From an uncultured Alphaproteobacteria bacterium (GTDB taxonomy: Bacteria; Pseudomonadota; Alphaproteobacteria; Micavibrionales; UBA1664), in NCBI GenBank assembly GCA_943789475.1, contig CALSUG010000003.1, positions 1 through 64,000 of the forward strand: a stretch of 64,000 bases of DNA, in the 5' to 3' direction. Both the position numbers and the translations under genes were made by a program. This document shows, in pieces, positions 33,667 through 51,676 of the stretch. Under the pieces are notes generated by a model. It was given only the letters and a program-made list of their open reading frames with translations. It made no database searches and was not told the origin of the DNA. The stretch's first letter is position 1. Each line of letters starts with the position of its first letter.

Positions 33667-34557
33667 ATGACGTTATATCTTCCTCACCATTTTTGCGATC
33701 AACAAACTGATCCTTTAAAGCCTGAGCAAATAATAGAGAACCTATCTACCTTTGAACAAATTGAACAATCTCTCTCTGATCCTAACCTTCTTCTCAACAC
33801 GCCATCAATTCGCAATCAAGATAATAAAAAATTGCTCCTCATTGGTGGTGCACCATCCGTTCGTAAAAATATAGATCCCTTGAATGATGAAAATTATCGT
33901 CGTGTTTTTACAGGTGGTGCAGTTAAATTTTTAGGTGAAACTAATGTAACACAACCTCGTAAAGGGGATATAGTTTTCCTTTCAAATCCACAAAGCACAT
34001 ACGATGTGACAATGCCCGACAATTTAGAAGGTGTTGATGTAATTATTGCTACACACTGCACACCAGAAACTTTTTCCGCGTTACAGTCGGCAAACGCGAA
34101 CATCATCCCATTTAATGGATATATTAAAGACAAATCACCTGACCATGTAAGAACGGAAAACGATACTGTTTTCAATATTGCGTATAGTGCCTTACCAACC
34201 GCATTCGCAATGATGGTTGAACATTTTGGGTATAATCATGTGGCAACACTTGGTTGGGATGGTGGTGATATGAACGATGTTGATCCAGCAATTTTAGCGG
34301 CACTTCGTGATATTCACAAAACTGGAAATCCATATCATTACGGTAACGAACCTATGGAACTTGCCATGGCGTTAGAGGGAATAAAAACAAAACCTGAAAT
34401 TACAAACTCTCTTGTCATTGAATTTATAAGTGAAGGTCAAAACACAGGACTGTTAACTGAAATTTCTGTAAATTCATCCGCACCATTATTTGATGCTATA
34501 AGAAGAGGTCAAGGATCCCTTCCTCAACCAAATTCTGCACCAAAATTAAAACGGTAA
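33667..34557 (+). CDS. Putative DUF115/MptE-like protein at the island edge
   Basis: 296 residues from ATG 33667, which has AAGGA upstream; ATG 33646 (303 residues) is possible but would have a leader of only about five bases. LLLIGGAPSV at about 64 and VATLGWDGGDMND at about 198-210 recall the DUF115/MptE-like fold, sometimes linked to sugar or pterin transfer, but the match is weak. Convergent with the holin gene with a 12-base overlap of coding ends. Its promoter is of the same TTGACA type as the extra genes inside the island, so it may be island cargo. Confidence 0.55.
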   Translation: MTLYLPHHFCDQQTDPLKPEQIIENLSTFEQIEQSLSDPNLLLNTPSIRNQDNKKLLLIGGAPSVRKNIDPLNDENYRRVFTGGAVKFLGETNVTQPRKGDIVFLSNPQSTYDVTMPDNLEGVDVIIATHCTPETFSALQSANANIIPFNGYIKDKSPDHVRTENDTVFNIAYSALPTAFAMMVEHFGYNHVATLGWDGGDMNDVDPAILAALRDIHKTGNPYHYGNEPMELAMALEGIKTKPEITNSLVIEFISEGQNTGLLTEISVNSSAPLFDAIRRGQGSLPQPNSAPKLKR

Positions 34558-35025
34558 TTTTTTATCCTCGCTGCGCTTATAAACGTAAATGCCGAGGACA
34601 GATAAACCAACCGTCCAAATGGCGGATAGGGATTCAATGGCTTCAATAACGATTGAGGCTTTATCCGTTTCAAAAACCATAATATACGCCACGCCAAACA
34701 TTTGCGCGGCCCATGTCATCGCCATCAAATATCCAAATGTTGGGCGCATACGTCGCACGTATAAATCTTGCGATAAAATTTCCGCACGCAGTGATGTGTT
34801 AATTTCCGCCAATGCCTTTGCATCCATTTCGGACAATGTTTCCAAATGACGATTTACCTCCTTCACCTCATCCAAGGTAATAGCACCCTTTGCAATTTCA
34901 TCCTCTACATTTTTTAACGCCTTTGATGCGTCACGCGCAAAATCATTATCAATAGATGATAATATTTTTGATAACGTTCCCGTTAAAAATGACAATCCCA
35001 TTTTCCCTAAAATTACTTCCAACAT
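34546..35025 (-). CDS. GTA-type holin (three-TM family)
   Basis: 159 residues. N-terminal amphipathic region (ILGKMGLSFLTGTLSKIL), long central helix, then RRMRPTFGYLMAMTWAAQMF and a second hydrophobic block WTVGLSVLGIYVYKR. This arrangement is that of the holin family named for gene-transfer-agent release. Expected to open the inner membrane for the SleB hydrolase encoded immediately upstream. Last gene of the leftward island operon. Confidence 0.72.
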   Translation of the reverse strand: MLEVILGKMGLSFLTGTLSKILSSIDNDFARDASKALKNVEDEIAKGAITLDEVKEVNRHLETLSEMDAKALAEINTSLRAEILSQDLYVRRMRPTFGYLMAMTWAAQMFGVAYIMVFETDKASIVIEAIESLSAIWTVGLSVLGIYVYKRSEDKKLPF

Positions 35026-35505
35026 CTACACCTCCAACTTAAAAAACACATGTGTGCCAAATTGCGCGATCGGGGTTTTACTGATAGACCATTTTGGTGC
35101 GACGGCGGTCGTGTGATAGTGGTTCGCCCCATGTGTAATATCCTCGTCCAATTGTCCATACACCGCACGGCGAGCAATCCGCAAACATGTGGCAAATTTT
35201 TTATTGTCCGCCGTCACCGTCATTAATTTTGGACGGTTCGGGTCACCCGGATTCCAACATGAAAATTGATACGGCGTTTGGCACACACTAACGATATCGT
35301 TGCCCCACCAAAATTGTTCGTTTGATTTTTCTGCCTGCGCCACGCGGTTTAAAATCACATGCGCCACGGCTTCTATCCCCTGTCGTGTTTCCGATCTTGC
35401 CTCGCCATAAAGTGTGCGCGCCAACACATCAATTTCCAATTCATGCAAGAATTCTTTTGTGTCTTTTTCATTCGCGGGTGAAAGTGTTTTATCAATTGTT
35501 CCCAT
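35026..35505 (-). CDS. SleB-type cell-wall hydrolase (endolysin)
   Basis: 159 residues. Hydrolase_2 domain: LARTLYGEARSETRQGIEAV with the catalytic Glu35, AHVILNRV, and QTPYQFSCWNPGDPNRP. Cleaves peptidoglycan. No signal peptide, so it depends on the holin. TAG stop directly abuts the holin start. Overlaps the spanin-like gene by 14 bases. Confidence 0.88.
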   Translation of the reverse strand: MGTIDKTLSPANEKDTKEFLHELEIDVLARTLYGEARSETRQGIEAVAHVILNRVAQAEKSNEQFWWGNDIVSVCQTPYQFSCWNPGDPNRPKLMTVTADNKKFATCLRIARRAVYGQLDEDITHGANHYHTTAVAPKWSISKTPIAQFGTHVFFKLEV

Positions 35506-35968: not shown

Positions 35969-37306
35969 CTATGGATTCCATTCACGCATTTCGGTGAGGA
36001 ACGGCGTTGCCTTTACAGCCTCATTAATATTAAGCGCCTGCGCCGCCATCACAGCATCAAAAGCTTCCAAAATGCGTTGTGATTTATTCGTGCGTGATGT
36101 GTGCTCAACCACCGCGCAATTCACACCTGCACCTCGTAATTCTCGACGTAAAATTGACGGTAAAAATTTTCCAATACCATTTATTTCAATCGTGATTGAA
36201 GGCACAAAAAAATGACTTATTAAGTCGCTAATTTTTTTGCATTGCTGTGTTGCCTCGTCATCATGATCATGCGCCTTGACCCGAATATATTCGATATGGT
36301 GCAAATAATATTGGCCATCTTCGTCCGTAAACACCAATGCCCAAACGGACGCATCACCATTTGCGGAACCAAACGCCGGATCCCACCACGCGGAACATGA
36401 AATCATTTGTTTTCCATTCAAAAATAAAATCGGTTTTTGCATCACTTCCTTGTAATCCAAATCCCCTTGATAAAAATGAAGCCTGCCCACATCCAATCGC
36501 CCCTCGGCAATATTAACGGGCTGTAACATCATTTGTGATGAAAATTTATTTGGCCCAACTTGTTTTTTCATGGCGTTAATTTCATTAATCGGAAAGCGTT
36601 CAGGCCACGCGCTCGTGCTTCCCGAATTCAAAATCGGCACGATGCATGATTTAAAATCATTGAGGAAAGCGTCCCCCTGATCAACATTTTGCGTGTCATT
36701 ATCAGTGGTATAAATCGTGTCATATGTGTGGGGCGTTCCAACATAAATTTGAAACCCTTGCGGTGTTAAAATAAATCTAGATTCGGTTAAGCGTTCGCGT
36801 AATTCTGCGCGCGCCTCTGTCGTGCTTGACGTGTTGGGCACCTCAACATCATCATAAATAATCATGTCCGCACGCGCGCCCGTAATGTTGGATGTTATAC
36901 CACGCGCCAACATCGATGGGTCGCGTAATTCTTGCCAACGTCGGACCGTGAAACGATCACTCCCCCATTGATCTGCCTCTTGTGGTTTTAACCCTGCGGT
37001 CAATGGGTGACGTTCAATAATGCGTTTAACATTACGCACCATTTTGCGCGCCAATGCATCATCGGCGGCCAACACCATCATCCGCATATTGGGATTGCGA
37101 TATAAAACCCATGCGCAAAAAATACCCACCAATGTTGATTTACCGCATGACCGAAACGCCATCAGTAACAGACGTGTATCCAATTTTTCGTACGAGGTTT
37201 CTAACCAATTTAATATCCGCAAATGGATGGAGGGCGTCGTCTGATTTTGCATTTGATTCCACATCACCGCAAAAATTGGTAAAGATAGTTGAGAGATTTT
37301 TTTCAT
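35969..37306 (-). CDS. Large terminase subunit, truncated by an in-frame amber codon
   Basis: 445 residues as written. ATPase motor: Walker A FRSCGKST (51-58), Walker B DMIIYDDVE (147-155). Nuclease: Asp309 in AWWDPAFGSANGDAS. The ORF stops at TAG 35971-35969 after EMREWNP. Translation of the same frame continues AKNGRDDGLDAVAGALAQEP and ends at TAA 35828-35830, adding 46 residues that contain the DDxxDA motif carrying the last nuclease acid. The stop is therefore a nonsense mutation in a conserved domain. Other island genes (endolysin, 49299 and 49706 genes) use TAG as a genuine stop, so recoding is unlikely. DNA packaging is probably impaired. Confidence 0.88.
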   Translation of the reverse strand: MKKISQLSLPIFAVMWNQMQNQTTPSIHLRILNWLETSYEKLDTRLLLMAFRSCGKSTLVGIFCAWVLYRNPNMRMMVLAADDALARKMVRNVKRIIERHPLTAGLKPQEADQWGSDRFTVRRWQELRDPSMLARGITSNITGARADMIIYDDVEVPNTSSTTEARAELRERLTESRFILTPQGFQIYVGTPHTYDTIYTTDNDTQNVDQGDAFLNDFKSCIVPILNSGSTSAWPERFPINEINAMKKQVGPNKFSSQMMLQPVNIAEGRLDVGRLHFYQGDLDYKEVMQKPILFLNGKQMISCSAWWDPAFGSANGDASVWALVFTDEDGQYYLHHIEYIRVKAHDHDDEATQQCKKISDLISHFFVPSITIEINGIGKFLPSILRRELRGAGVNCAVVEHTSRTNKSQRILEAFDAVMAAQALNINEAVKATPFLTEMREWNP

Positions 37307-37596
37307 TCATTAATCCCTCCTAATTCTCTTTTTGCCTCAGCGATGAGAGTGTCAAGATGACTCAAATCACTATCATCAACCGCGTCCACCATACCGGCAA
37401 GTTTTATTAAAAGTTCAATATGCGCGAGCGCAGCCTTTGCCGCCATGTGACGATTTTTGAAATCTGTAGCCTCTTCCGCACTCTCTTGATCAACAAAATC
37501 ATGATAAGAGTTAATCGTCTTTTCCATTGCGACAGGCAATGTTTGTACAATTTGGGCACGCGCCTGCGCACCAATTTCAGGTGTTTTTTGTTTCAT
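37303..37596 (-). CDS. Probable small terminase subunit
   Basis: 97 residues, helical, acidic. The start of the large terminase overlaps its TGA by four bases, the usual arrangement of TerS and TerL. Sequence alone does not show a recognised DNA-binding fold; the call rests on position and size. Confidence 0.55.
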   Translation of the reverse strand: MKQKTPEIGAQARAQIVQTLPVAMEKTINSYHDFVDQESAEEATDFKNRHMAAKAALAHIELLIKLAGMVDAVDDSDLSHLDTLIAEAKRELGGINE

Positions 37597-37613: not shown

Positions 37614-39656
37614 TTAAGAATTAAATTTATTCACGATGTACCATTCAGCACCATTGGAAACGACGGTGATAGCATTATAACGTGATAAAAGGTTCTGCGT
37701 GTATTGATCCGGACCCGCTCCACCCTGTTCACTTACATAAACAGGATTATTTGATACATCTGTTTTTTTAATCGTGATTGTACGCCCGATGGCTTTGGCG
37801 GCATTAGCAGGTGGCAGACGACATGTGACCGTACCGCCATAGGAGCTGATCAAGTATGTATCGACCGACATGTCGATATCCAATTGACCATTCGTATCAT
37901 AATATTTTGTATTCCCCGCCATACGGTTGGAGGATGTCACAAACCATTCCGCACCGTTCGATAAGATCGTCACATAATCATATGGCCCGCCCAAAATAAT
38001 TTCCGCTTTACGATCAATACCCAATCCATTGGGTTCGGAAACACGCACGACATTACCCGTAAAATCGATCTTCTTAATCGTATAAGTCGCCCCCTGAACC
38101 GTTGAGGCCAATGGCAAATCAACCGTAATTTCGCCTTGTGAGGCTGAAACTAAATGCACAGATCGTTCAGTAGATAACGCGACATTTTGTGCCGATGGTG
38201 CCTCAACAAAAACTGTATCTGCACGTGTTAATGTCGCGGTCAAATCATCGACCTGCATTGAACCAAATTTATTCGTGGTGGGGTATCCTGCATTAATCGC
38301 CTGATATTGCCCACCCGATTGATCATCGATCGCTACACCGTTCGACATTGCCAAAAGATTAGTCAAAAATGTACGTGTCGAACCTGAACTAAAAACCACA
38401 TTCGGCACACTATTTGTGGATTCTGTATAAAGATTATCAATCACCGTTTCATTCGCATTGCCACCAATTATCAAACAAGATTGCGCCGAACCATCAACAT
38501 TGATTTCACAATTTACGATGCGATTATAGAATGATCCGTGTTCGATATTGATCCCATGACCACTGATCGGTTGACCATTCGAACACACACGACATCCATC
38601 AAAAATATTCGCGTTTGGCGTATCTCCGTTCACTCCTGATTTTGTCAAAACAATCCCATTTTCGGATGGAGAGAGAACAAGGAAGCTTTTAAAAATATTC
38701 CAATAACATGGTTTGTTCGTATCATTTCCACCATCAAGAACAATGCCGTTTCGTGCATTTTCAATGATCAAGTTTTCAAATCGATTTTGAACACAAGGTG
38801 AATCTTGCCCACTTAAAAAAACACCCGTTTTTCCACCCTCAATTTTAAAATCGGACACAATGCAATATCCAGAACGCAGTGAAAAAACATCGAATAAATT
38901 GCTATCAGCTTTGATGATAGAGCTCTGCCCTGCACCATAAATTCTTTTGCCAAACCCAACCGAAATCGTATTTGTAATGCGATATATTCCCGTAGGGATA
39001 TAGATTGCATCATGGGCATGAAGAGCCTGTGCAACTGCAGAAGTATCATCAGAAACACCGTCCCCCATCGCACCAAAATCACGGATCGAAATCACATCAG
39101 TCATCTTATCATTCATAGAACGGTTTACCGCTCCAACACCGCTTGCAGTGAAAGATGGTGCACTTTGCGTTAGCCCATAATCAACCGCAATAGGATTTCC
39201 ATTTTCATCAAAACCAAGAGCTTTATTCGCACGATTTTGCGCATCGGGAAGGATTGCATTTTTTCCCTGTTCATCGGTAGAAAAAGTAAGCATGTTTTTT
39301 TGATCTCGCGAGATTTGTTGAACGCTCGCCGTGAGATAATCCAATTCGTTATTTAACGCCTTTGCTGAAAAATCTCCGCTTTCTAAAAAGTCCGTGTAAC
39401 GCTCATACGGCACTTGACGTAGGCTTGTGATAACAACTCCCGATGCAGGGGCGGTATCAAAAATCACTTCACCACCACCCGTTTCACCCACGCCCATAAC
39501 GCTATAACCTTGAACCTGTTCAACACCATCAAGACGAACAACAATGTCTTCGGTTGCAAAAATCGGGAACGGAAATTCATAGGACATATCAACCCCGTTT
39601 GCAGTATATTGCACACGCGGCGATACATCCGGTATTTTTATATGCTGGTTTGGCAT
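37614..39656 (-). CDS. Tail spike with T7-fibre-like N-terminus and pectate-lyase-like helix
   Basis: 680 residues. Residues 1-120 match the particle-binding N-terminus of T7-type tail fibres (FPFPIFATEDIVVRLDG, RQVPYERYTDFLESGDFSAK, LNNELDYL). From about 188 (ISIRDFGAMGDGVSDDT) a pectate-lyase superfamily right-handed beta helix runs to about 450, typical of depolymerising receptor-binding spikes. The C-terminus has two related modules (about 498-582 and 599-680), each with TIKK-D, V-VSE, and SNGAEW(F/Y)(V/I). Expected to bind or cut a surface polysaccharide. Confidence 0.85.
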   Translation of the reverse strand: MPNQHIKIPDVSPRVQYTANGVDMSYEFPFPIFATEDIVVRLDGVEQVQGYSVMGVGETGGGEVIFDTAPASGVVITSLRQVPYERYTDFLESGDFSAKALNNELDYLTASVQQISRDQKNMLTFSTDEQGKNAILPDAQNRANKALGFDENGNPIAVDYGLTQSAPSFTASGVGAVNRSMNDKMTDVISIRDFGAMGDGVSDDTSAVAQALHAHDAIYIPTGIYRITNTISVGFGKRIYGAGQSSIIKADSNLFDVFSLRSGYCIVSDFKIEGGKTGVFLSGQDSPCVQNRFENLIIENARNGIVLDGGNDTNKPCYWNIFKSFLVLSPSENGIVLTKSGVNGDTPNANIFDGCRVCSNGQPISGHGINIEHGSFYNRIVNCEINVDGSAQSCLIIGGNANETVIDNLYTESTNSVPNVVFSSGSTRTFLTNLLAMSNGVAIDDQSGGQYQAINAGYPTTNKFGSMQVDDLTATLTRADTVFVEAPSAQNVALSTERSVHLVSASQGEITVDLPLASTVQGATYTIKKIDFTGNVVRVSEPNGLGIDRKAEIILGGPYDYVTILSNGAEWFVTSSNRMAGNTKYYDTNGQLDIDMSVDTYLISSYGGTVTCRLPPANAAKAIGRTITIKKTDVSNNPVYVSEQGGAGPDQYTQNLLSRYNAITVVSNGAEWYIVNKFNS

Positions 39657-40110: not shown

Positions 40111-40605
40111 TCAATACCCGCTTGTTGCACGTTGTAATCGTTGCTGTTCGGCGAGCTGTGATTGCTCCAAAATATTACGTTCCGATAATGTATAGATATC
40201 ATTATTGAGTGCGTTATAGCGGATCTTGTCTAACTCCTCCCTTTGTTTTGCCTCCTCATCGCTTTCGTTATACAGGCCCAATAATACAGCTTCGCCACTT
40301 CCCCCTGAACTTGTTCCACTTGCCCCACGCGCAGCATTTTGTTTGGCCATCGCACGTTTGAGTGCTTTACGACGACGTGTCGAATCTTGTTCCGCTTGCA
40401 AGGTAATGCTTTCGCGTTCTAATTTTGCGTTCCGTTCGGCCTGCGCTTTTTCTTGCGCTTGACTGGCTTGCAATTGCTTCATCGCAAGATCCTGAGATTT
40501 TCGTTGCGTATTATCACCCGTTAATTGTTGTACACCTTGCGATATGGTGTTGAGAGTGCCGAGCGTGCTGCTCACTTGTGTTAATGTTGATGCGAGAGTT
40601 CCCAT
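40111..40605 (-). CDS. Phage internal or minor virion protein, T7 gp14-like
   Basis: 164 residues, mostly a charged helix rich in Gln/Glu/Lys/Ala with a glycine/serine hinge (ARGASGTSSGGSGEAV). Size, position after the nozzle gene and helical build recall the internal core protein gp14 of T7-like phages. Overlaps the nozzle stop by one base. Confidence 0.5.
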   Translation of the reverse strand: MGTLASTLTQVSSTLGTLNTISQGVQQLTGDNTQRKSQDLAMKQLQASQAQEKAQAERNAKLERESITLQAEQDSTRRRKALKRAMAKQNAARGASGTSSGGSGEAVLLGLYNESDEEAKQREELDKIRYNALNNDIYTLSERNILEQSQLAEQQRLQRATSGY

Positions 40606-42506
40606 TAGTCATTTACCTTTAGTTCAGTTGTTACAGAAAGAAGTGTGAAGGGCAGAGGGATATCTTGTTCAATCCGCCATAGAGATTTTGTTAAATCCTT
40701 ACTCCACCCGAATGATTTAACCGTGATATCGCGACTGACCGGATTTATCGGTGCGTCCAATATTTGCCCATCGTCAAAATCACGCAAGGGAACATCATCC
40801 AATCCACGCCCCATATCAAGACGAAGTGCCGCAGTATCCTCGACACGATAAATTGCCTCAATCAACCTTGTCGCACGACCCGCGCCCGTACCCGAAATAT
40901 TCGATGGCGGTAATGGTTCAATAATATGGGTATAGGGTAAACCGATTTCCACCATATTTGCAGGGTCGCCCAAAACAACCGTTCCATTCACAACCTCCAC
41001 CGATGGTCGCACGATATCATCCGCCTTAACCGTCACGGTTAAACCATCCAAATGATCCAACCCCGACCATGTTGTGGTGGCTGTAACGGCCTCACCCTTT
41101 AACGTTGAATCCGAATAAATTGTATCGTCAAAATATTCGATCATGTACTGACCACTACGATGAACAAGAACATAAACATCATCCCCCGTCACCGCGACGG
41201 ATAAAAATTGCCCGTCCGTTTTTTGCAATGTCCATGCCGATACCTTTTCAACACGGTAATTGGTGAGCGTCGCCATATCACCATTATCCAAAACAAAATG
41301 AAGTAACCTATTCCGTTTATCAAATGCCTGATCAATCGGATTTTCAATCAAATGTTGCGCCAACAATGACACGTCCGTTGCCTGATACGCGGCCTCCAAA
41401 TCCGTATATAAAAATTCACGAATTTCACGACCATTACGTGCAACGAAAATTGTCGCCCCCTCAATATCAACGGGTAAAACAGTACGATCGGTCAAAGATC
41501 CAATTCGTGTTTGTCGTTCAATTTGAACACTTGCAGGTGTGAGTGGAGAACCTGTGACTTGCCATTCCGCACCACTGGTAAATACCTGCAAATCACGACC
41601 GCTAAACACCGCACGAATGGCATTCACCTGATCGGACAAAATTGAAAATTCAATTGATTCATCGTCCAATCCTTTACCCAAATCAAAATTCCAAATATCA
41701 CCCGTTTTTGACATCCATAACCGATTGGGTAAATCACGTGATCCACCAATGATCAAACGGTCCTGATGAAAACATACCGTTGTTGGCCACCCACGAAATT
41801 GTGAAAACACTTCTTCTTCCCAATCACTTGTCGCATCTGTGCTATCCAAATCTTCTACAACATTTCCATCCACGATGGTTGGGGATGCATATGATGTGAT
41901 GTCAATTTCGCGACCGCCAACGCGCATTCGCGTTCCCGCATGTAATGGGTCAAACACATCCGATGATGCAGTTAATGTTACCGTACCACTTGTCCCATTT
42001 GGGGTAATTGTCACACCATCATCGGCAAATTTGAAATAGGGTTGGTGTTTTACACCTTCATCATCAATCAAAAATTCCCACGGGTTAATTGACCATGCAC
42101 CCGCACCATCACGCGTAATTTTTTGTGGTCGTACATCAGGGTGACAAATCAACAAAGTATCCGCGCTTTGCGTCCAATATAATTGTTCAATGTGTGCCAA
42201 TGTCCATGGCGTGACAAGTGTCGTTATTTTTACACCATTTTGATACACATCAATTTGTAAATCGGTAAGGACAAGCAAATATGTTTGTTCTGTATTAAAT
42301 TCAAAGTCAATCAAACGACCTGCGCCCGCAACCGTATCAACATAGGCCAATCCCGAACGACGTGTTAACCCACCCGTTGGATGAATAAAAACATTACGCA
42401 ATGATAACGCGCCATTTCCGTATGACCGTAAATCCCCACGACCAAGAAGACGACGTGAAATTTCACCACTTGTAAAAGTGGTTTTGGTTTGTCTTATGCG
42501 ACTCAT
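40605..42506 (-). CDS. Tail nozzle protein (tail tubular protein B-like)
   Basis: 633 residues. N-terminal FTSGEISRRLLGRGDLRSYGNG and LRNVFIHPTGGLTRRSGLAYV are the family's hallmark, followed by beta-propeller-like sequence with FRGWPTTVCFHQDRLIIGGS and RLWMSKTGDIWNF. It forms the distal tail tube in short-tailed phages. Preceded by the terminator of extra gene 2. Confidence 0.85.
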   Translation of the reverse strand: MSRIRQTKTTFTSGEISRRLLGRGDLRSYGNGALSLRNVFIHPTGGLTRRSGLAYVDTVAGAGRLIDFEFNTEQTYLLVLTDLQIDVYQNGVKITTLVTPWTLAHIEQLYWTQSADTLLICHPDVRPQKITRDGAGAWSINPWEFLIDDEGVKHQPYFKFADDGVTITPNGTSGTVTLTASSDVFDPLHAGTRMRVGGREIDITSYASPTIVDGNVVEDLDSTDATSDWEEEVFSQFRGWPTTVCFHQDRLIIGGSRDLPNRLWMSKTGDIWNFDLGKGLDDESIEFSILSDQVNAIRAVFSGRDLQVFTSGAEWQVTGSPLTPASVQIERQTRIGSLTDRTVLPVDIEGATIFVARNGREIREFLYTDLEAAYQATDVSLLAQHLIENPIDQAFDKRNRLLHFVLDNGDMATLTNYRVEKVSAWTLQKTDGQFLSVAVTGDDVYVLVHRSGQYMIEYFDDTIYSDSTLKGEAVTATTTWSGLDHLDGLTVTVKADDIVRPSVEVVNGTVVLGDPANMVEIGLPYTHIIEPLPPSNISGTGAGRATRLIEAIYRVEDTAALRLDMGRGLDDVPLRDFDDGQILDAPINPVSRDITVKSFGWSKDLTKSLWRIEQDIPLPFTLLSVTTELKVND

Positions 42507-43261: not shown

Positions 43262-43831
43262 TTATTCCCTCACATCCGTTAATGGGAATGATCGCAATCG
43301 TTGTGGTTTATCTTGTTGCGCATCAATTTGGCGGGCCTTTGAAAATTCGGTTTCGGCAATTCGCATCATCACATCAAAACGTGATGTATTTTCCGTGAGT
43401 GGTATGCACAATTCTGCCGCCAGACGCATAATTAATGCCGTTTCAAAAAATGGTGGAAATTCATGTTCATCCGCGCGGTAAACATATGTCAGGATTATTT
43501 TTTCGCTGTTGCTGTATAAATTGCCACGCATGATACGATAATCAATCCCGTGGGATAATACATCCGACCCCGCCGATAATGCCCGCAAAAAATCATTCGG
43601 CAATCCGTATGCATATTTATGTCCACCAATGGGTGTTTCGGCCAATTGCGCCAATTCAATTTGCGCGGTGGCAAACCCCCAACCATAGGCCGACAACAAC
43701 GCATCACGTGATTGCGGATATAACGCACCACAAATTTCGGCCTCGGCCGAACCATCGTCAAATGATGTAATTGGTTGAGCACCAAGTCGTATAAGCGCAC
43801 GCGCGCATAATCCAATGTCATTGAATGCCAT
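43262..43831 (-). CDS. Head-tail adaptor (tail tubular protein A-like)
   Basis: 189 residues. LCARALIRLGAQPITSFDDGSAE and YPQSRDALLSAYGWGFATA are typical of the adaptor that links portal and nozzle in short-tailed phages. AAGGAAAAATAAA precedes the ATG. Terminator of extra gene 3 lies just upstream. Confidence 0.83.
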   Translation of the reverse strand: MAFNDIGLCARALIRLGAQPITSFDDGSAEAEICGALYPQSRDALLSAYGWGFATAQIELAQLAETPIGGHKYAYGLPNDFLRALSAGSDVLSHGIDYRIMRGNLYSNSEKIILTYVYRADEHEFPPFFETALIMRLAAELCIPLTENTSRFDVMMRIAETEFSKARQIDAQQDKPQRLRSFPLTDVRE

Positions 43832-44231: not shown

Positions 44232-44474
44232 TTAAGCCGTGAAGGCCGCGACAGTGACCGCACCATCCGTTACATCACTCACGATATAAAATGATGTGGA
44301 TGGCGAACCGTCCGTATCCAAACTGGTAATGATCAGGTCATTTGCACGCACCATGTCGGATGCAATGTTCAAATATCCTGTGCCGGTTACATCGGCGTCT
44401 GTGGTTGTGTAATGCCACAATGTGAAATTATTGGCATACGCCAACACACTTAAATCATTTGGTTTAAAAGCCAT
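44232..44474 (-). CDS. Small phage protein, possible capsid decoration
   Basis: 80 residues, beta-rich (TLWHYTTTDADVTGTGYLN, FYIVSDVTDGAVTVAAF). It lies immediately after the major capsid gene and overlaps it by 11 bases, a common position for head decoration or stabilising proteins. Assignment by position and composition. Confidence 0.55.
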   Translation of the reverse strand: MAFKPNDLSVLAYANNFTLWHYTTTDADVTGTGYLNIASDMVRANDLIITSLDTDGSPSTSFYIVSDVTDGAVTVAAFTA

Positions 44475-45333
44475 GATAAAAATCCTTATATGTTATGAAT
44501 GAATTATGTTCCTGGTGTTTCGTCACATGGAATTTCAACAACCCCATCGCATCAATTAACCCTGCACCTTGCGACATCATGTTGTTTACAAAATGCGCTG
44601 CACGGTCACCATGCCATGTAATATCCGTTGAAACATCGGCCGCAATCACATGACCAATTGATGTTTTATGGAACCAGAAGCATGAACGAACACCACTGCT
44701 GTCAACTGGTAATCCCGAATGCACCATAAATGTTGTGCCAAGGAATTTTTTCGCCTGTGATCCCTGCCATGGTAATTCATCATTACCGACATAATCGGCG
44801 CTGCTAAATTCATCCATTTGCAACAATTCTGACCATTGTTTTACACCAACAATACAAAAACGTTGTCCGTCATCAGGGATTTCGTTTTCACCCAAAATTT
44901 CATAGGCCTCTAACAATTTTGCCTTTGTCATACCCGTTGTATTATCGGCAACAGATGTCGTTGTTGATGCCAATGCATTGATAATCATTTCATCGGTTTT
45001 ACGTCCCAATGCATATGCACCTGCGGATGCAATCACCTGACGTTCATCATGGTTGATTTTGATTTCATCCATTTTATCAATCCAATCACCAGCGTAATAA
45101 TCGGCCAATGCGACCTCAACCGCCGTATGTTCCAAATTCATTACAGGCACCATACCGCCAGATGATTTTGTCATGGCCGTGCCTTTTCCAACCTTTTGGA
45201 AAACACATGTTGCGCCCTTGGCATTATTAGATACGCGCACCGTATTGCGTAATTTTGACCCCATACGTTGGTACGCGGTATGCACCTCTTGTTCAAATTG
45301 TTTGACAAAGGCCGTTTCAATAGTCGTCGACAT
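44464..45333 (-). CDS. Major capsid protein
   Basis: 289 residues, GAGGAG before ATG 45333. HK97-type coat-like sequence; QFEQEVHTAYQRMGSKLRNT, ADYYAGDWIDKMDEIKINHD and a C-terminal MSQGAGLIDAMGLLKF. Position between scaffold and adaptor genes supports the call. The coding end reads through the ribosome site of the next gene. A repressor-type operator and a terminator lie in its 5' region. Confidence 0.8.
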   Translation of the reverse strand: MSTTIETAFVKQFEQEVHTAYQRMGSKLRNTVRVSNNAKGATCVFQKVGKGTAMTKSSGGMVPVMNLEHTAVEVALADYYAGDWIDKMDEIKINHDERQVIASAGAYALGRKTDEMIINALASTTTSVADNTTGMTKAKLLEAYEILGENEIPDDGQRFCIVGVKQWSELLQMDEFSSADYVGNDELPWQGSQAKKFLGTTFMVHSGLPVDSSGVRSCFWFHKTSIGHVIAADVSTDITWHGDRAAHFVNNMMSQGAGLIDAMGLLKFHVTKHQEHNSFITYKDFYHGF

Positions 45334-45480: not shown

Positions 45481-45509
45481 AATTTAGGATATTATTCCTA
45501 TATTGTCAA
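45481..45509 (-). promoter_or_regulatory. Promoter with operator O3 in its spacer
   Basis: Minus strand TTGACA (45509-45504), 17 bases, TAAATT (45486-45481). The palindrome TAGGATATTATTCCTA at 45485-45500 nearly fills the spacer. It matches O1 (14 of 16) and O2 (13 of 16) beside the repressor gene, so binding would block RNA polymerase. Confidence 0.7.
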
Positions 45510-45512
45510 TGG

Positions 45513-46412
45513 TTATTTTTGATCTTCTTGTAATGTGTGGTGATTTTCACGAAATGATCCATCATAACGTACGTGGGTGAATACGCCCTGTCCCTGCAAA
45601 ATTTTAAATCCACTATTCCGCCACCACGGACCATTAATGCATAATTCTGGCGCTTGAAACCCATTGGATGATCGTGTCGATGCAGGATTATTTTCAACAA
45701 ACGGTACAAAAACATTCAACCACATATCACGCGAAATAAGTAAGCATTGATCGGTAAAATCGATAGCCGAACTGTCGATAATCAAAAAATCATCTTTGCG
45801 CTCAATAACATCGGGATGGATATTTTCTGGATTTTCCTCGATAAAAACACTACGCCCTTTAAATCGTTTTGCGTTATTTGGCTTTAACATTCTCTTTATT
45901 TTTTTGCCAAAACCATCACTATAATCAAGTGATCTTGAACCATGTTCCTCGACAATAAAGTTATTCGATTTATTTTGAACGCCGTAATATTTCAAATATT
46001 TTGTGACATCTGCAAACCCCTCACCAACTTTCCAACGGTGACGCATTCGGGCAAGGTTAGCATCACCATTTTCCATCAATTCAACGGCTTTTTTGATATA
46101 ATTTATTGAAAAACCATCGCCTTCACAAATTGGATTATCATTTTGTAATAACAAAATATAATCAGTTTTCAAATTTTCAGATAATCGTTTCATACCACCG
46201 GCAATCCCCTCATTAGGACCACCCGCGAATTCCCATCCAAATTCGGCTGCAATTTTTCTATCTTCATCCGATATATCCGAAAAATAAATGAGCGTTTGAT
46301 CAAATGATTTTAGAAACTCTTGCGAATAACTTTCTAATGATTTTCGTAATGTATCATGCGCCTTCCATGATAAAATCCCAAGACCGATAGTTTTTTTTGA
46401 TTTTTGAGGCAT
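45513..46412 (-). CDS. Glycosyltransferase-like extra gene
   Basis: 299 residues from ATG 46412. GLGILSWKAHDTLRKSLESY and DYILLLQNDNPICEGDGFSI fit a GT-A-type transferase with an acidic metal motif replaced by QNDNP. Positioned between scaffold and capsid genes, divergent from the PilZ gene. Many phages carry such genes to alter host surface sugars; that role is inference. The start lies at the predicted transcription start of a shared palindromic promoter, so it may be leaderless. Confidence 0.68.
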   Translation of the reverse strand: MPQKSKKTIGLGILSWKAHDTLRKSLESYSQEFLKSFDQTLIYFSDISDEDRKIAAEFGWEFAGGPNEGIAGGMKRLSENLKTDYILLLQNDNPICEGDGFSINYIKKAVELMENGDANLARMRHRWKVGEGFADVTKYLKYYGVQNKSNNFIVEEHGSRSLDYSDGFGKKIKRMLKPNNAKRFKGRSVFIEENPENIHPDVIERKDDFLIIDSSAIDFTDQCLLISRDMWLNVFVPFVENNPASTRSSNGFQAPELCINGPWWRNSGFKILQGQGVFTHVRYDGSFRENHHTLQEDQK

Positions 46413-46426
46413 GTTTATGTTATAAC
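46397..46426. promoter_or_regulatory. Shared divergent promoter with palindromic -10 box
   Basis: Only 21 bases separate the two start codons. GTTATAAC (46419-46426) is its own reverse complement and offers TATAAC as a -10 box in both directions. Forward, TTGATT stands 18 bases upstream. Predicted starts fall at 46433 (+) and 46412 (-), next to or on each ATG. Confidence 0.5.
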
Positions 46427-46433
46427 CATAATT

Positions 46434-46814
46434 ATGAATGATGCACCAAATTATAACCCTCATGGGGCTAATGACAATACAACAATTCAACGCCGTCGTT
46501 TTCCACGTCGTGATCATGATGTCTGTATGATTAATGTTGATGGTCATCCATACCCTGTTGTAGATTGGAGCATGTGTGGTGTTTTATTTAAAGGTGACAC
46601 ACGCACATTCAACGAAGGCCAACATGTCAATATGGTTTTACGTTTTAAAACAAAAGATACGATTGAAGATGTTAAAATATCTGGTGAAGTTATTCGCACA
46701 AAAGGAATGGCCATCGCAACACAATTTGGCGATCTACCTAACAAGATCGAACAAACACTTAACAAGATTATTGATATGAACCCTGCGCCATCAACAAAGA
46801 CCGCGCAGAGCTAA
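46434..46814 (+). CDS. PilZ-domain protein
   Basis: 126 residues from ATG 46434. RRRFPRR at 20-26 and DWSMCG at 44-49 match the RxxxR and (D/N)xSxxG c-di-GMP-binding motifs of PilZ. A single-domain receptor, cytosolic. The only rightward gene inside the structural operon; its stop is six bases from the scaffold gene's stop. Probably links island cargo, or the adjacent glycosyltransferase, to host c-di-GMP signalling, which is inference. Confidence 0.8.
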   Translation: MNDAPNYNPHGANDNTTIQRRRFPRRDHDVCMINVDGHPYPVVDWSMCGVLFKGDTRTFNEGQHVNMVLRFKTKDTIEDVKISGEVIRTKGMAIATQFGDLPNKIEQTLNKIIDMNPAPSTKTAQS

Positions 46815-46820
46815 AAACAA

Positions 46821-47525
46821 TTATTCCGTATACAGGTTTTTAAATCCGTCCGTGACCTTTGCAATAAATGCAGGATCTTTATCACGCCAATATTTGGGAT
46901 CACTCATCATTGATTGCAAATCTTTATCCGCATTCGACGATACCATTTTACCTTGCGCACCCAATGTTTGCGGTTCATCCGATTGCATCATTTGATACAG
47001 GGCCATAATACCTTCATAGGATGAACTCATCCCTTTCAAAACCTCTGGTGACAGATTTTTTTGGCCATAGGATAACATTTGTCGTGACATCTCTTTCCAT
47101 TGATCATCACCACCAAAATGATTTTTCAAACGATCAATTTCACGATCTGCCTGAAATTCCGCGGCAACATCCAAAATCATTGGAATCATTTTCTCCACGG
47201 CCAGATCATAAACCTCTTGCACCTGATCACAGGTGAACCCCTTCGCATGAAGACGAGCGTGCATATCCGCATCAGGTTCAAATAAATTATCCTTCACCGC
47301 GATTTCATAGTCATCTGGCGAATTTGGCACATCACTATTTAATAATGATGACGAAGATGTCGACATTTTCTTTTCCAACTCACCATACGATTTGACCAAC
47401 GCATCCATGCGCACTTCGCCTTTTTCATGATCCCAAAATTTATCGGGCAGACCGTCTGGCTTTGCCAACACGCCTTGTGCAATTTCATCGAGCAGGTTTG
47501 TTGTTTCATTCTGATCTTCGCTCAT
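46821..47525 (-). CDS. Capsid assembly scaffold
   Basis: 234 residues, acidic. KPDGLPDKFWDHEKGEVRMD and ALVKSYGELEKK are typical of T7-like capsid assembly proteins; the rest is helical. Directs procapsid assembly and is absent from the mature head. Two bases downstream of the portal gene. Confidence 0.83.
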   Translation of the reverse strand: MSEDQNETTNLLDEIAQGVLAKPDGLPDKFWDHEKGEVRMDALVKSYGELEKKMSTSSSSLLNSDVPNSPDDYEIAVKDNLFEPDADMHARLHAKGFTCDQVQEVYDLAVEKMIPMILDVAAEFQADREIDRLKNHFGGDDQWKEMSRQMLSYGQKNLSPEVLKGMSSSYEGIMALYQMMQSDEPQTLGAQGKMVSSNADKDLQSMMSDPKYWRDKDPAFIAKVTDGFKNLYTE

Positions 47526-47527
47526 AA

Positions 47528-49027
47528 TTATAAATCTCCTTGTTGAGTGTTAGATTGTTGAAGGTCGGTTTCGTTTAGTGACGGTAGAGGTACATCCTCG
47601 CGGATAAGATCGCTTGGTACGCCCAACGCCTTACCCAAATGACGCGTTGCCGCCGCCAAATCAACGGCCGTTGCTGCCTCCGGCCCCATGGATAACGCCG
47701 TATTAATCCAATATAGTGTGTTTTGAACATGGCTTTGCGCCTGTCCACGCGCCATCGGCGATCGATAATCCAACGACACCATGCGCCCATCAATATCAAT
47801 GTCAGGCACCTCACCACGACGGCGTAAAATCGCATAGGCGCGTTGGATGAGTGGCGTTAATAATTCAGACTGCAATCGCCCATAGGTGGCACCTAACAAC
47901 ATTGCCATGTCGGATGATCGCTCCAACACCTCGGTCGCCGTCATTTGACGTTGCCCAATCATGCCCAAACGATCCACCATCATCGCATGACGAATACGGT
48001 CACGCATATCTTGTAAAACAATTTGTGAAATATCAAAATTGGATGGCATTTCAAGCGGTGTTAGACCTTTCGACCCGACTGCTTTTGGAATAATTGTACC
48101 GGGTGTTAGATCCACATTTTCAAGATTAATCACACCATCATCATCAGCCTGCCAAACACCACTGACAGCAATTGATGCATTTTTTAGGGTGAGCTCAACG
48201 ATTTTATTCGCCGTTTTAATATCAGGTAACGCCTTCATCACTGGCGATCTACCATAATATTCACCTGGTGATTTCATCCAACGGAATGAAATAAATGGCG
48301 AATGCACAAACGATCCTTGGGTTAACAATAGCGGTTCACTCACCCCTTCAATCAAGAACGCGATATAATCATAGGACAAACCATTAGGGTGAACCGTTTC
48401 CAAAACATCAAATGTAGTTTGCGAATTTTTTAATCCTTGCTCCATAATTTTGGGTGGCAATTCAACATTCGCAAAACGGCTTTGCATTTCGGCCAATGTC
48501 ATTTTGACCTCGCGATATGTCGTATCCAACCGCCCTGTGCGTGCGCCTTCACTTAATGATACTTGCGACAAGGGAATCGATTTAAATTTGAACGCTGAAA
48601 AACCACCAGGTTGTGCCTCTTCAAATAATAAAGTAGCTGTACCGCCCGTGACCAAATCCAAAAACGTTTGATGAATTTCGGTTGTAAAATTTGATCGATC
48701 CAAATGCGATTGCACCAATCGTCCTGCCTTTTCCAATGCCGGTGACAATGCCTGCGCATCCTCGGGTGACATTTCAGGCCCCGGCGCAAAACCAAACCAT
48801 TGTGACCATGGCGGCGTTAAATTACCAAGCAGGCTAGCCGATAATTGTTCAACCGCATCCATCGCCGTACCGTCATAGAGGTGATCCGTGCGCGCACCAC
48901 CAATCGTGCTATCGCCTTCCCGTTGAGGAAACGCATAATTATAACAATCCTGCCATAAATTTTCCCATGATCCACGGCGTTTCTTTGCCATTTCATAATC
49001 ATCAAATAATGTTTTTATATGATCCAT
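47528..49027 (-). CDS. Portal (head-to-tail connector), T7 gp8-like
   Basis: 499 residues. WENLWQDCYNYAFPQREGD, LYDGTAMDAVEQLSASLLGN and RSPVMKALPDIKTANKIVE are hallmarks of the podoviral head-tail connecting family. It forms the dodecameric DNA gate at one capsid vertex and docks the terminase. Full length, no sign of damage. Confidence 0.92.
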   Translation of the reverse strand: MDHIKTLFDDYEMAKKRRGSWENLWQDCYNYAFPQREGDSTIGGARTDHLYDGTAMDAVEQLSASLLGNLTPPWSQWFGFAPGPEMSPEDAQALSPALEKAGRLVQSHLDRSNFTTEIHQTFLDLVTGGTATLLFEEAQPGGFSAFKFKSIPLSQVSLSEGARTGRLDTTYREVKMTLAEMQSRFANVELPPKIMEQGLKNSQTTFDVLETVHPNGLSYDYIAFLIEGVSEPLLLTQGSFVHSPFISFRWMKSPGEYYGRSPVMKALPDIKTANKIVELTLKNASIAVSGVWQADDDGVINLENVDLTPGTIIPKAVGSKGLTPLEMPSNFDISQIVLQDMRDRIRHAMMVDRLGMIGQRQMTATEVLERSSDMAMLLGATYGRLQSELLTPLIQRAYAILRRRGEVPDIDIDGRMVSLDYRSPMARGQAQSHVQNTLYWINTALSMGPEAATAVDLAAATRHLGKALGVPSDLIREDVPLPSLNETDLQQSNTQQGDL

Positions 49028-49028
49028 T

Positions 49029-49295
49029 TTATTCTCCTAATAAACTTTTTCGTTGAGGAACAATGGATGTCAAAGATCCCTCATCTTCATCTAAAACACC
49101 GCGATAGGATGTTTGAATTGTTGCGCTTCGGCTTCGTGTCGATTTACGTACAAAATCGCGAATATCGTTTTCTTCACTTGAAGTATCATCTGCTTTCACC
49201 TCATCTTTATCCGTTACCGTTTGCATTATCGGACTTACCACCGTTGATTGGGTCGGGGCATAACTTGGCGTGTTTGTTGAAAATAATGATCCCAT
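49029..49295 (-). CDS. Small phage protein
   Basis: 88 residues, low complexity at the start, ending IVPQRKSLLGE. Short proteins ending in RK(S/T)LLGE commonly precede the portal in podovirus-type clusters. Role unknown. One base before the portal start. Confidence 0.62.
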   Translation of the reverse strand: MGSLFSTNTPSYAPTQSTVVSPIMQTVTDKDEVKADDTSSEENDIRDFVRKSTRSRSATIQTSYRGVLDEDEGSLTSIVPQRKSLLGE

Positions 49296-49298
49296 GAC

Positions 49299-49712
49299 CT
49301 AAGAACCTTTCTTTTGAATTTTTAATAATGATCGATATAGTTGATGTGGTGTCACCACAAACCAACGATGAAGACCAAGAAAACGTTTAATGATTTCGAC
49401 ACACGAAATCGGCAATACAGACGCTATTTTTCGTGGTGTTTGGATTGACGGAACCTTCATAACTGTCTTTCCCTGCTCCATAAAAAATCGAGGAAAATTA
49501 AAATGATGGGGGTGAGGCAGAATTTGGATATCCGTTTTGTCCGCACGTGGATCAATCAAAACCCAACGGTTATCTTGCTGCATAATAATAAAACAATGAC
49601 GAAATCCTGTTTTTAAGATTTTTAAAAACCACAAATCCGTTTCATTCGAAAACACCACCCACGTTGTTTGTGTCACATTTTCCTCAGGTGATAACATAGC
49701 TGTTTCTACCAT
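49299..49712 (-). CDS. Phage-cluster protein, possible NlpC/P60-like fold
   Basis: 137 residues from ATG 49712. LKTGFRHCFIIMQQDNRW and PISCVEIIKRFLGLH place a cysteine and a histidine pair in an order seen in NlpC/P60-type proteins, but catalysis is uncertain. Found beside portal genes in related podoviral clusters (family recollection). TAG stop. A longer reading to 49844 would overlap the next gene deeply and was rejected. Confidence 0.55.
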   Translation of the reverse strand: MVETAMLSPEENVTQTTWVVFSNETDLWFLKILKTGFRHCFIIMQQDNRWVLIDPRADKTDIQILPHPHHFNFPRFFMEQGKTVMKVPSIQTPRKIASVLPISCVEIIKRFLGLHRWFVVTPHQLYRSLLKIQKKGS

Positions 49713-50098
49713 CGTGACACCGCCTCGCGACGTTGTTGAAAATCGATTATTTCTGCGGACAATTTTGATATAACAATATCTTTTGCAATTAAGACGTCTT
49801 CCAAGATTTCCATCGCTTCCCCCCAAAGAGTCGACGCATGCCATTCCTTTGCATGATATGGATCGGGTGCCAACATACGATCACCGTAATGACGCATGAC
49901 ACGAAAATGATTCATATCTAACCGACGGTGACGGCGTAGGCGTTCTAATATTTTTAAAATATCCGTGGGTTCACACGGGCGAATAACATCCCCTTGATTT
50001 GCACTTTGTTTCGCGCCTGACTGACGCGCTTTATGCGATTGCATAAACCAAAACCATGCCTCCTCTGCCGAATTAAATAACGTTATATTCATTCCCAT
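49706..50098 (-). CDS. First gene of the island operon, conserved phage-type protein
   Basis: 130 residues, helical. NSAEEAWFWFMQSHKARQSGA, RPCEPTDILKILERLRRHRRL and MNHFRVMRHYGDRMLAPDP form a recognisable alphaproteobacterial phage-associated family of unknown role. TAG stop, seven-base overlap with the next gene. Its promoter should lie among the operators at 50186-50237. Confidence 0.62.
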   Translation of the reverse strand: MGMNITLFNSAEEAWFWFMQSHKARQSGAKQSANQGDVIRPCEPTDILKILERLRRHRRLDMNHFRVMRHYGDRMLAPDPYHAKEWHASTLWGEAMEILEDVLIAKDIVISKLSAEIIDFQQRREAVSRW

Positions 50099-50185
50099 TT
50101 TGTTTATCTCGCTCTCCCTTTTGTTCCACTTATGTTCTAATCATCATTAACTAAACACGGATATTTCGGCTCGTCAATATAAAAA

Positions 50186-50201
50186 TAGGATTTTATTCTT
50201 A
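50186..50201. promoter_or_regulatory. Operator O1
   Basis: TAGGATTTTATTCTTA, matching O3 at 14 of 16 positions. It lies in the divergent region between the repressor gene and the island operon. Minus-strand TTGACG at 50175-50170 and TTAGTT 17 bases on may be the island promoter. Confidence 0.65.
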
Positions 50202-50221
50202 TATTATTATTAATATTTATA

Positions 50222-50237
50222 TGGGATAATAATCCTA
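50222..50237. promoter_or_regulatory. Operator O2
   Basis: TGGGATAATAATCCTA, matching O3 at 13 of 16. It overlaps an extended -10-like TGGGATAAT on the plus strand, 26 bases before the repressor ATG, as expected for autoregulation. Spacing from O1 is 36 bases centre to centre. Confidence 0.65.
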
Positions 50238-50262: not shown

Positions 50263-50907
50263 ATGTTCAAACATAATGAAATTTGGATCGCCATTGATCG
50301 ACTAGCCAATACCGCAGGATATTCAACATCAGGGTTAGCAAAAAAGGCAGGGTTGGATCCAACATCATTTAACAAAAGCAAACGAATGAGCCCAGAGGGC
50401 AAGCCACGTTGGCCATCGACAGAATCGTTATCAAAAATTTTATCCGTAACCAACGTCACGATGAACGATTTCATCACCCTCATTCATATTGAAACCCCAC
50501 AATCCAATAATCAACGTCATACCATTCCTGTTGTTGGATGCGCACAAGCCGGACAACACGGATATTTTGATGATGCCGGATACCCCCAAGGTGAAGGGTG
50601 GGATTATGTTGATTTACCCGGCGTTACACCAAAGGATGAAAGCACATATGCGTTAGAAGTCAGCGGCAATTCAATGGAACCATTGTACCGTCACGGTGAT
50701 ATCATTGTAGTCAGTCCAGAAAAAAATATCCGTAAAGGCGATCGCGTTGTCGCAAAAACAACAGACGGACAAGTCATGGTTAAAGAGCTCATCCGTCAAA
50801 CAACATCTAAAATTGAGTTAAAATCCATCACCCCCGATCATGATAATATTATTTTAGAACCATCACAGATGACGTGGATAGCGCGCGTTTTGTGGGTGAG
50901 TCAGTAA
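50263..50907 (+). CDS. S24/LexA-like repressor
   Basis: 214 residues. N-terminal HTH around 20-45 (SGLAKKAGLDPTSFNKSKRM, then WPSTESLSKIL), a C-terminal S24 peptidase with cleavage pair Ala96-Gly97, catalytic Ser137 (SGNSMEPL) and Lys174 (VMVKEL). RecA-stimulated self-cleavage would lift repression. Relatives with this HTH are also found as ordinary chromosomal regulators in alphaproteobacteria, so it may be host-derived. The three palindromic operators fit it as ligand. Confidence 0.88.
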   Translation: MFKHNEIWIAIDRLANTAGYSTSGLAKKAGLDPTSFNKSKRMSPEGKPRWPSTESLSKILSVTNVTMNDFITLIHIETPQSNNQRHTIPVVGCAQAGQHGYFDDAGYPQGEGWDYVDLPGVTPKDESTYALEVSGNSMEPLYRHGDIIVVSPEKNIRKGDRVVAKTTDGQVMVKELIRQTTSKIELKSITPDHDNIILEPSQMTWIARVLWVSQ

Positions 50908-50974: not shown

Positions 50975-51676
50975 ATGGCATTTTCAACACCGTATTTTGA
51001 CAAGCAGACAATCGCGCGCGAGGCATCAAAAATCCTCATCGAAACCGAGGCGGTTTTATTTAATGCAAAGGAACCATACACATATACGTCAGGTCGCAAA
51101 GGCCCAGTTTATGTTGATTGTCGTAAATTAATCGCCTTTCCACGTGCACGCGGTGTGCTGATGGATATGGCCGCGTCAATGCTCGCTCAAAATGTTGGAT
51201 TGGAATCACTCGATGTTATTGCAGGTGGTGAAACCGCAGGTATCCCATACGCGGCATTTTTGTCTGAACGCATGAACCTGCCCATGGCCTATGTCCGTAA
51301 AAAACCAAAAGGTTTTGGTCGTATGGCACAAATCGAAGGGGTTGTCGAAGAAGGCGATAAAGTTATTTTAGTCGAAGACTTACAAACCGATGGCGGATCA
51401 AAACAAATTTTTGTTAATGCCCTGCGTGAAGCGGGTGCACAAGTTGACCATGCCTTTGTTGTATTTCATTACGGTATTTTCGAAGCCAGCCAGAAAAACA
51501 TGGATGATTTGGGTATCACACTTCACTCATTAACCGATTGGCCAACTGTTTTAGAAACTGCACAAAAAAATCAATATTTTGATAGTGAAACATTGGATAG
51601 TGTCCGCATGTTCCTTAACGATCCCGTGCAATGGTCTGTCGACCACGGCGGAAAAGGTGAAGAGGACGCGGCATAA
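50975..51676 (+). CDS. pyrE: Orotate phosphoribosyltransferase
   Basis: Makes OMP from orotate and PRPP in pyrimidine synthesis. 233 residues; PRPP loop VILVEDLQTDGGS at 130-142, and YTSGRKGPVYVDCRK near the N-terminus. AAGGAAC precedes the ATG. It marks the right border of the island. Three bases from nadK. Confidence 0.93.
   Translation: MAFSTPYFDKQTIAREASKILIETEAVLFNAKEPYTYTSGRKGPVYVDCRKLIAFPRARGVLMDMAASMLAQNVGLESLDVIAGGETAGIPYAAFLSERMNLPMAYVRKKPKGFGRMAQIEGVVEEGDKVILVEDLQTDGGSKQIFVNALREAGAQVDHAFVVFHYGIFEASQKNMDDLGITLHSLTDWPTVLETAQKNQYFDSETLDSVRMFLNDPVQWSVDHGGKGEEDAA

Follow-up and report, generated by a model that had tools for sequence, protein, structure and literature searches.

Repression of gene transfer agents (GTAs) by a LexA-like protein has been described in Caulobacter crescentus, where RogA represses the GTA activators, GGAA-N4-TTCC repeats are found in the bound fragments upstream of these activators, and a site has been reported by surface plasmon resonance (SPR) (PMC9632790). 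Two families of GTAs in Alphaproteobacteria, Rhodogtaviriformidae and Bartogtaviriformidae, are vertically inherited, caudoviricete-derived gene clusters (PMC9662315), and FpGTA of Faecalibacterium is a podovirus-like head, portal, and terminase cluster that lacks replication genes and is found across its host group (PMC12946183). The locus described here shares features with each of these. It is a set of T7-like head, tail, packaging, and lysis genes of about 16 kb (34.5 to 50.9 kb), with an S24-type repressor gene at its edge, in a 64-kb stretch of DNA (the window) from the 1.97-Mb genome of an uncultured alphaproteobacterium of the order Micavibrionales. We consider it quite probable, going by sequence comparisons, that this is a vertically inherited GTA-like cluster governed by a two-key switch, with LexA holding the portal and scaffold genes and a RogA-like repressor holding the capsid gene.

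The operators of the proposed switch are three 16-bp near-palindromes, which the earlier note had picked out from the sequence and which are all present where it placed them. These sites and the capsid promoter are as follows.

45485 to 45500, minus strand: operator O1, TAGGAATAATATCCTA, occupying the spacer of the capsid promoter; 36 of 43 relatives have an operator at the corresponding position
45481 to 45509, minus strand: capsid promoter P_cap, with TTGACA at 45509 to 45504, a 17-bp spacer, and TAAATT at 45486 to 45481, the form TTGAC-N3-operator-WWWT being conserved
50186 to 50201, no strand assigned: operator O2, between the repressor and portal-operon promoters, centered at about position -44 of the repressor promoter
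50222 to 50237, plus strand: operator O3, at a distance of 36 bp from O2 and overlying the repressor promoter's -10 element (GATAAT, 50225 to 50230) and start

P_cap lies about 150 bp 5' of the capsid ATG (45333), and O1 does fill the 17-bp spacer of this TTGACA/TAAATT promoter on the minus strand, as had been proposed. The accompanying claim that O2 and O3 flank the divergent promoters of the repressor needs to be refined: both are located at these promoters, but O3 covers the -10 element and the +1 position of the repressor promoter, and O2 lies just upstream of both the repressor -35 element and the divergent portal promoter, whose start carries a LexA box. In the window, a search with O1 that allowed 3 mismatches returned 4 matches against 0.66 expected, and none of 100 shuffled sequences reached 4. 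The motif is not distinctive in a single genome and must be judged by whether it is conserved at homologous positions. The matrix used for this purpose was built from the three window sites only and applied to the homologous upstream regions of relatives; scores of the window sites against their own matrix are circular and were not taken as evidence. The palindrome TAGGA-W6-TCCTA was found again in about 50 related genomes, including those in which the surrounding DNA has diverged and most codons have changed. Upstream of the capsid gene, 36 of the 43 regions score at least 12 and 35 have p < 0.005 when compared with first-order Markov shuffles. Almost all of these sites are arranged as TTGAC-N4-operator and overlap the -10 element. 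Upstream of the repressor gene, two operators exactly 36 bp apart are present in 33 of 54 regions, and most of the others have two or three operators spaced 20, 30, or 46 bp. We have high confidence, judging from these alignments, that the operators are real as conserved sequence, and they are very probably the sites of the adjacent repressor; this phylogenetic footprinting gives strong support to the idea that the operators of the S24 repressor also occur in the promoter of the capsid gene. The core of the motif is AT rich and degenerate matches are common, as would be expected of chance matches within AT-rich spacers, but position-specific conservation in diverged genomes already contradicts that explanation and leaves it a negligible probability.

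The portal side of the switch has a different signature.

50149 to 50177, minus strand: portal-operon promoter P_L, with TTGACG at 50177 to 50172, N17, and TTAGTT at 50154 to 50149
50123 to 50137, minus strand: LexA (SOS) box GAACATAAGTGGAAC, of the GAAC-N7-GAAC form, in the start region of P_L

The TTGAC of P_L is found 6 to 9 bp beyond O2 in 39 of 44 aligned loci. Where 0.0026 would be expected per 200 bp, a GAAC-N7-GAAC sequence follows the -10 element in the portal-promoter interval of 42 of 49 loci; these 42 have a box at the promoter, as do genes of the SOS regulon. Since recA and lexA of the same genome are preceded by boxes of this form, the box at the portal promoter is the SOS box of the host. 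A link to DNA damage had been suggested previously; it is supported, albeit via this conserved box, which was absent from the earlier note, as were the GTA-like, vertically inherited character of the island, the resemblance to RogA, and the changes of sensor domain. With a LexA box at the portal promoter and an operator at the capsid promoter, the two operons appear to be under different keys. The repressor promoter itself has the form TTTAC-N17-GAYWAT, with its -10 element within O3, and in many genomes the repressor ATG immediately follows O3, which suggests a leaderless message.

Host LexA takes a direct or indirect part in the control of CTX-phi, coliphage 186, and RcGTA; here, in contrast, the LexA box and the repressor operators are on separate structural operons of one cluster. 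With lambda CI and its OR region, as with other SOS-induced prophage switches, the locus has in common an S24 repressor, paired operators at the repressor's own promoter that resemble OR2 and OR3, and the logic of DNA damage. It differs from lambda in having single sites 36 bp apart instead of adjacent triplets, a distal operator in the capsid promoter, and LexA as the predicted holder of the other operon, and in lacking a lytic replication module. Lambda CI bound at OR2 activates PRM, and by this likeness O3 is expected to repress and O2 may activate.

In the mechanism that we propose, the repressor would bind TAGGA-W6-TCCTA at O1, O2, and O3. Occupancy of O3 would block the repressor's own -10 element and start (autorepression), O2, at about -44, would be in the activating position of lambda OR2 while also adjoining the portal-operon promoter, and repressor bound at O1, within the capsid-promoter spacer, would shut that promoter. 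LexA would in addition hold the promoter of the portal-scaffold operon through the SOS box. Upon DNA damage, activated RecA would take LexA off the portal promoter. If the S24 domain is intact, RecA would also cleave the repressor and thereby free the capsid promoter, and the genes for shell, portal, packaging, and lysis would be switched on together; particles capable of DNA transfer might then be produced. Lineages with a decayed S24 domain, or with PyrE in its place, would keep the LexA key and have the second key read by another sensor, in the PyrE fusions presumably one for pyrimidine or phosphoribosyl pyrophosphate (PRPP) status.

Several observations weigh against this reading. Genome-wide, the degenerate motif with up to 2 mismatches has 55 matches, compared to 54 for a reversed control, so there is no excess, and a scan of a single genome can neither prove nor refute the motif. 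Such a scan had been put forward as a check, with many random matches counting against the operators. Random degenerate matches are indeed common, but conservation is limited to these promoters and some other composite promoters, which makes the number of random matches a poor refuting test. When upstream regions were scored with the matrix, the capsid operator was missing from genus g26 and from genomes G008, G038, and G080. Outside the order, 15 of the 20 class-level loci examined have no capsid site at p < 0.005, the capsid operator being detectable in 5 of the 20 and an operator beside the repressor in 8 of 10; in lineages without the capsid operator, the capsid gene would be controlled by other means. 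The position of O2 does not by itself distinguish activation from repression. Finally, lexA looks frameshifted in the assembly of the window genome (C5:304997-305850), possibly through an error of assembly, and has kept its SOS boxes intact.

A bystander role of the repressor, with the palindromes belonging to a different, genome-wide regulator, would account for the composite promoter being found elsewhere in many genomes, with up to about 40 strand-counted matches in one of them. We regard this as very unlikely, because the promoter region of the repressor itself contains two or three sites in nearly all loci and the site reported for RogA by SPR has the same core. Composite sites are also present in 28 of 31 genomes of families that have the repressor, as opposed to 5 of 24 genomes (one site each) in repressor-less families, a comparison confounded by ancestry.

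The repressor and its downstream neighbor are encoded as follows.

50263 to 50907, plus strand: RogA-like repressor of 214 amino acids, with a helix-turn-helix (HTH) region (residues 1 to 80) and an S24 domain (PF00717, 4.8e-26)
50975 to 51676, plus strand: pyrE, an essential pyrimidine gene for orotate phosphoribosyltransferase (NF001729, 2.9e-103), immediately following the repressor gene

RogA is the nearest repressor to have been described. It and the window repressor are alike in their size of some 213 to 214 residues and in combining an HTH with an S24-like domain, and the inverted repeat GGAA-N4-TTCC of RogA resembles the operator core predicted here, GGAW-N4-WTCC (PMC9632790). By size, domains, and predicted site, the window repressor appears to fit the RogA family, to which it is likened by description. 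RogA lacks the S24 catalytic residues, whereas in the window repressor the alignment shows the A96-G97 cleavage site and the dyad of Ser137 and Lys174 all intact; loss of these residues does not define the family as a whole. RogA acts indirectly, via gafYZ, on a siphovirus-derived cluster of the RcGTA type, whereas the window repressor abuts T7-like particle genes and has its predicted site within the capsid promoter itself.

Across 55 repressors, the HTH (around AGLDPTSFNKSKR..p.GKPRWPSTES) is nearly invariant and the C termini vary. Most S24-type relatives retain the Ala-Gly, Ser, and Lys residues, as does the window protein. The catalytic residues have been lost in seven genomes (G008, G014, G031, G038, G046, G051, and G053), and an eighth (G050) has lost the Lys. 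In approximately 18 genomes, the S24 domain is replaced by PyrE, joined in frame to the HTH in a stop-free frame of 303 to 316 residues; the entire C terminus of one such fusion aligns with solved orotate phosphoribosyltransferases, and the PyrE portion is apparently a full-length enzyme of the active type. These genomes retain the operators and the LexA boxes. In genomes with S24-type repressors, the gap between the repressor gene and pyrE is usually about 10 to 100 bp, and in the window it has no conspicuous promoter or terminator, so that a deletion could create the fusion. On the tree of LepA, which served as a remote host marker, the fusions require two changes, and a single origin may be compatible with that tree. 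Bacillus subtilis PurR consists of an HTH and a sensor domain with the phosphoribosyltransferase fold. The HTH-PyrE fusion resembles it in layout but has a full-length orotate phosphoribosyltransferase instead, and the window PyrE is matched weakly by purR_Bsub of NCBIfam. One genome (G076) carries the whole cluster twice (L111 and L112), each copy with its own HTH-PyrE fusion.

The remaining genes of the cluster, read from the repressor side, are listed here.

49706 to 50098, minus strand: first gene of the portal operon, conserved, no assigned function
49299 to 49844, minus strand: second gene of the portal operon, conserved, no assigned function
47528 to 49027, minus strand: portal, T7-like head-tail connector (PF12236, 7.9e-131)
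46821 to 47525, minus strand: scaffolding protein, T7 capsid assembly family (PF05396, 1.6e-10)
46404 to 46814, plus strand: PilZ-domain protein (PF07238, 3.2e-6), retained throughout the order at this position between the scaffold and capsid genes
44464 to 45333, minus strand: major capsid protein (PF19821, 8.9e-80)
43262 to 43831, minus strand: tail tubular protein A-like (phrog_394, 7.8e-46)
40605 to 42506, minus strand: tail nozzle, tubular B-like (phrog_376, 6.4e-146)
37614 to 39656, minus strand: tail spike or fiber (phrog_1640, PF12708)
37303 to 37596, minus strand: probable small terminase subunit, adjoining the large one and matching phrog_31793 (function not annotated)
35969 to 37306, minus strand: large terminase, T7 type (NF033889, 2.3e-120)
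35026 to 35505, minus strand: endolysin, SleB type (phrog_938, 3.6e-19)
34546 to 35025, minus strand: holin, GTA type (PF11351, GTA_holin_3TM, 8.3e-8, above the cutoff)

The order of genes is shared by about 50 loci, in which nadK, pyrE, and the repressor gene are followed on the opposite strand by the two small genes, portal, scaffold, capsid, tail, terminases, lysin, and holin, usually with nhaA after the holin; the position beside pyrE is constant across the order. Two loci (G050 and G036) are split, and only remnants are found in G005, G006, G028, G057, and G071, some of which have kept the repressor and PilZ genes. Only in the window's genus does a gene resembling glycosyltransferases, which has no Pfam match (45513 to 46421, minus strand), lie between scaffold and capsid. 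In remnant loci L085, L088, L095, L128, and L137, most or part of the particle genes are gone and the repressor and PilZ genes are retained; these two outlast the particle genes and so may have a role of their own.

According to the definition in PMC9662315, GTAs have particle proteins derived from caudoviricetes, are fully endogenized, and are inherited mostly vertically with codiversification of the host. The three other features in the definition are experimental: GTAs package mostly random host DNA, have heads too small to take up their whole own genome, and deliver DNA to other cells. The portal, scaffold, capsid, tail, terminase, holin, and endolysin of the window correspond to the first of these features, and the fixed pyrE locus, together with the lack of integrase and replication genes, corresponds to the second. 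Profile searches of the proteins found no integrase, polymerase, primase, or other replication gene between 34.5 and 50.9 kb; an active temperate phage would be expected to carry genes for integration, excision, and replication, and none was detected in this interval. As for the third, distances of host LepA within the order correlate with those of capsid, portal, nozzle, and terminase (Mantel r of 0.63 to 0.76; null maxima of 0.36 to 0.42), and the LepA and particle-gene trees agree in their main groups. Among 94 relatives, the capsid is encoded in 61 and the repressor in 65, mostly in a single copy. The ratio of nonsynonymous to synonymous substitution rates (dN/dS) of the structural genes is mostly 0.01 to 0.13 in pairs with dS below saturation, indicating purifying selection; values from pairs with dS above 1 are unreliable and were given lower weight only. 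The podovirus-derived particle cluster is most likely a GTA, to judge from these comparisons. Consistent with such an assignment, the Pfam description of PF11351 reads "Holin of 3TMs, for gene-transfer release."

A temperate podovirus prophage of the usual kind, partly defective and under a CI-type repressor, would also place an S24 repressor next to structural genes; clusters of this type appear in IMG/VR as viral contigs about 18 kb long, and relatives of the capsid are found in Pelagibacter and Vibrio podoviruses. We reject it as the main explanation because of the missing integrase and replication genes and the vertical inheritance, and consider it improbable: the locus beside pyrE is constant, the genes have codiversified with LepA under strong purifying selection, and the capsid matches to named phages are all below 60% identity, with no close relative of the repressor in any of the matched phage records. 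Vertical descent has been reported for other podoviruses, those with dual tubeA, which are distinct from the window element (PMC10386132). A phage-derived particle that kills related cells or delivers proteins, under the same regulation, has a precedent in PBSX (discussed in PMC12946183) and would be in keeping with the conserved lysis and tail-spike genes. It would have no need, as a tail-only device, of the T7-type large terminase, portal, scaffold, and capsid that have been kept here, terminase and capsid being under purifying selection, and we consider it an unlikely alternative to a GTA.

As a GTA-like element, the cluster is set apart from the RcGTA and BaGTA types by its T7-type terminase, portal, and nozzle, a distinction made by description. 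FpGTA, which it resembles in gene content, belongs to another phylum and has two operons in some strains, and no repressor of this kind appears in that text (PMC12946183). In a class-wide set of 385 genomes, the capsid is present in 60 from many families, some with genomes of about 0.9 Mb, at 33 to 70% identity outside the genus. A relative of the repressor is encoded in 119 of the 385, including 50 of the 60 capsid-bearing genomes (Fisher p, 4e-20), and in the inspected loci with both genes the repressor is divergent and located beside the same small genes. Whether this amounts to a class-wide, anciently domesticated podovirus-like GTA of non-RcGTA, non-BaGTA type, with a RogA-type repressor on the capsid promoter, tied to the pyrE operon, and with one PyrE-gated lineage, seems to us evenly balanced. 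Neither the element nor the HTH-PyrE fusion is described in the openly licensed literature that we searched, which is weak evidence of absence.

Should the cluster prove to be a GTA, Alphaproteobacteria, including some with genomes of about 0.9 Mb, would have an additional type that derives from podoviruses and is cataloged as prophages in viral databases. It would also bear on two open questions, namely, what triggers GTAs and how frequently viruses are domesticated. The switch would make the question of the trigger testable: the SOS response is plainly one of its keys, and the other could be traced by comparing lineages in which the sensor domain has been naturally replaced and the operators have stayed the same. 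From the PyrE fusion, a particular metabolic signal can be predicted, in which case particle production would be gated by pyrimidine metabolism. The presence of a RogA-like gene next to those it is predicted to control also suggests a possible origin of RogA-type repressors.

Copies of the composite promoter-operator are also found in front of dispersed genes. The window genome has two (C5:72059-72074, L142, and C8:342458-342473, L144), and there are many in G001, G019, G025, and G048. In 24 of 41 inspected dispersed sites, an ATG is found 4 to 7 nucleotides past the -10 element (7% by chance), resembling a leaderless message, and several of the genes behind such sites encode small proteins weakly similar to Phd/YefM antitoxins. 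A P22-like cluster elsewhere in the window genome (C8:96-105 kb, L219), with terminase and tail-like genes, has a weak operator-like site and shows no sign of belonging to the system. Two paralogous loci of the same genome (C1:68407-68441, L138, and C4:1274-1308, L141) lie next to serine-recombinase genes and each have a LexA box five bases from a copy of the operator, an arrangement that looks like a mobile element using both keys.

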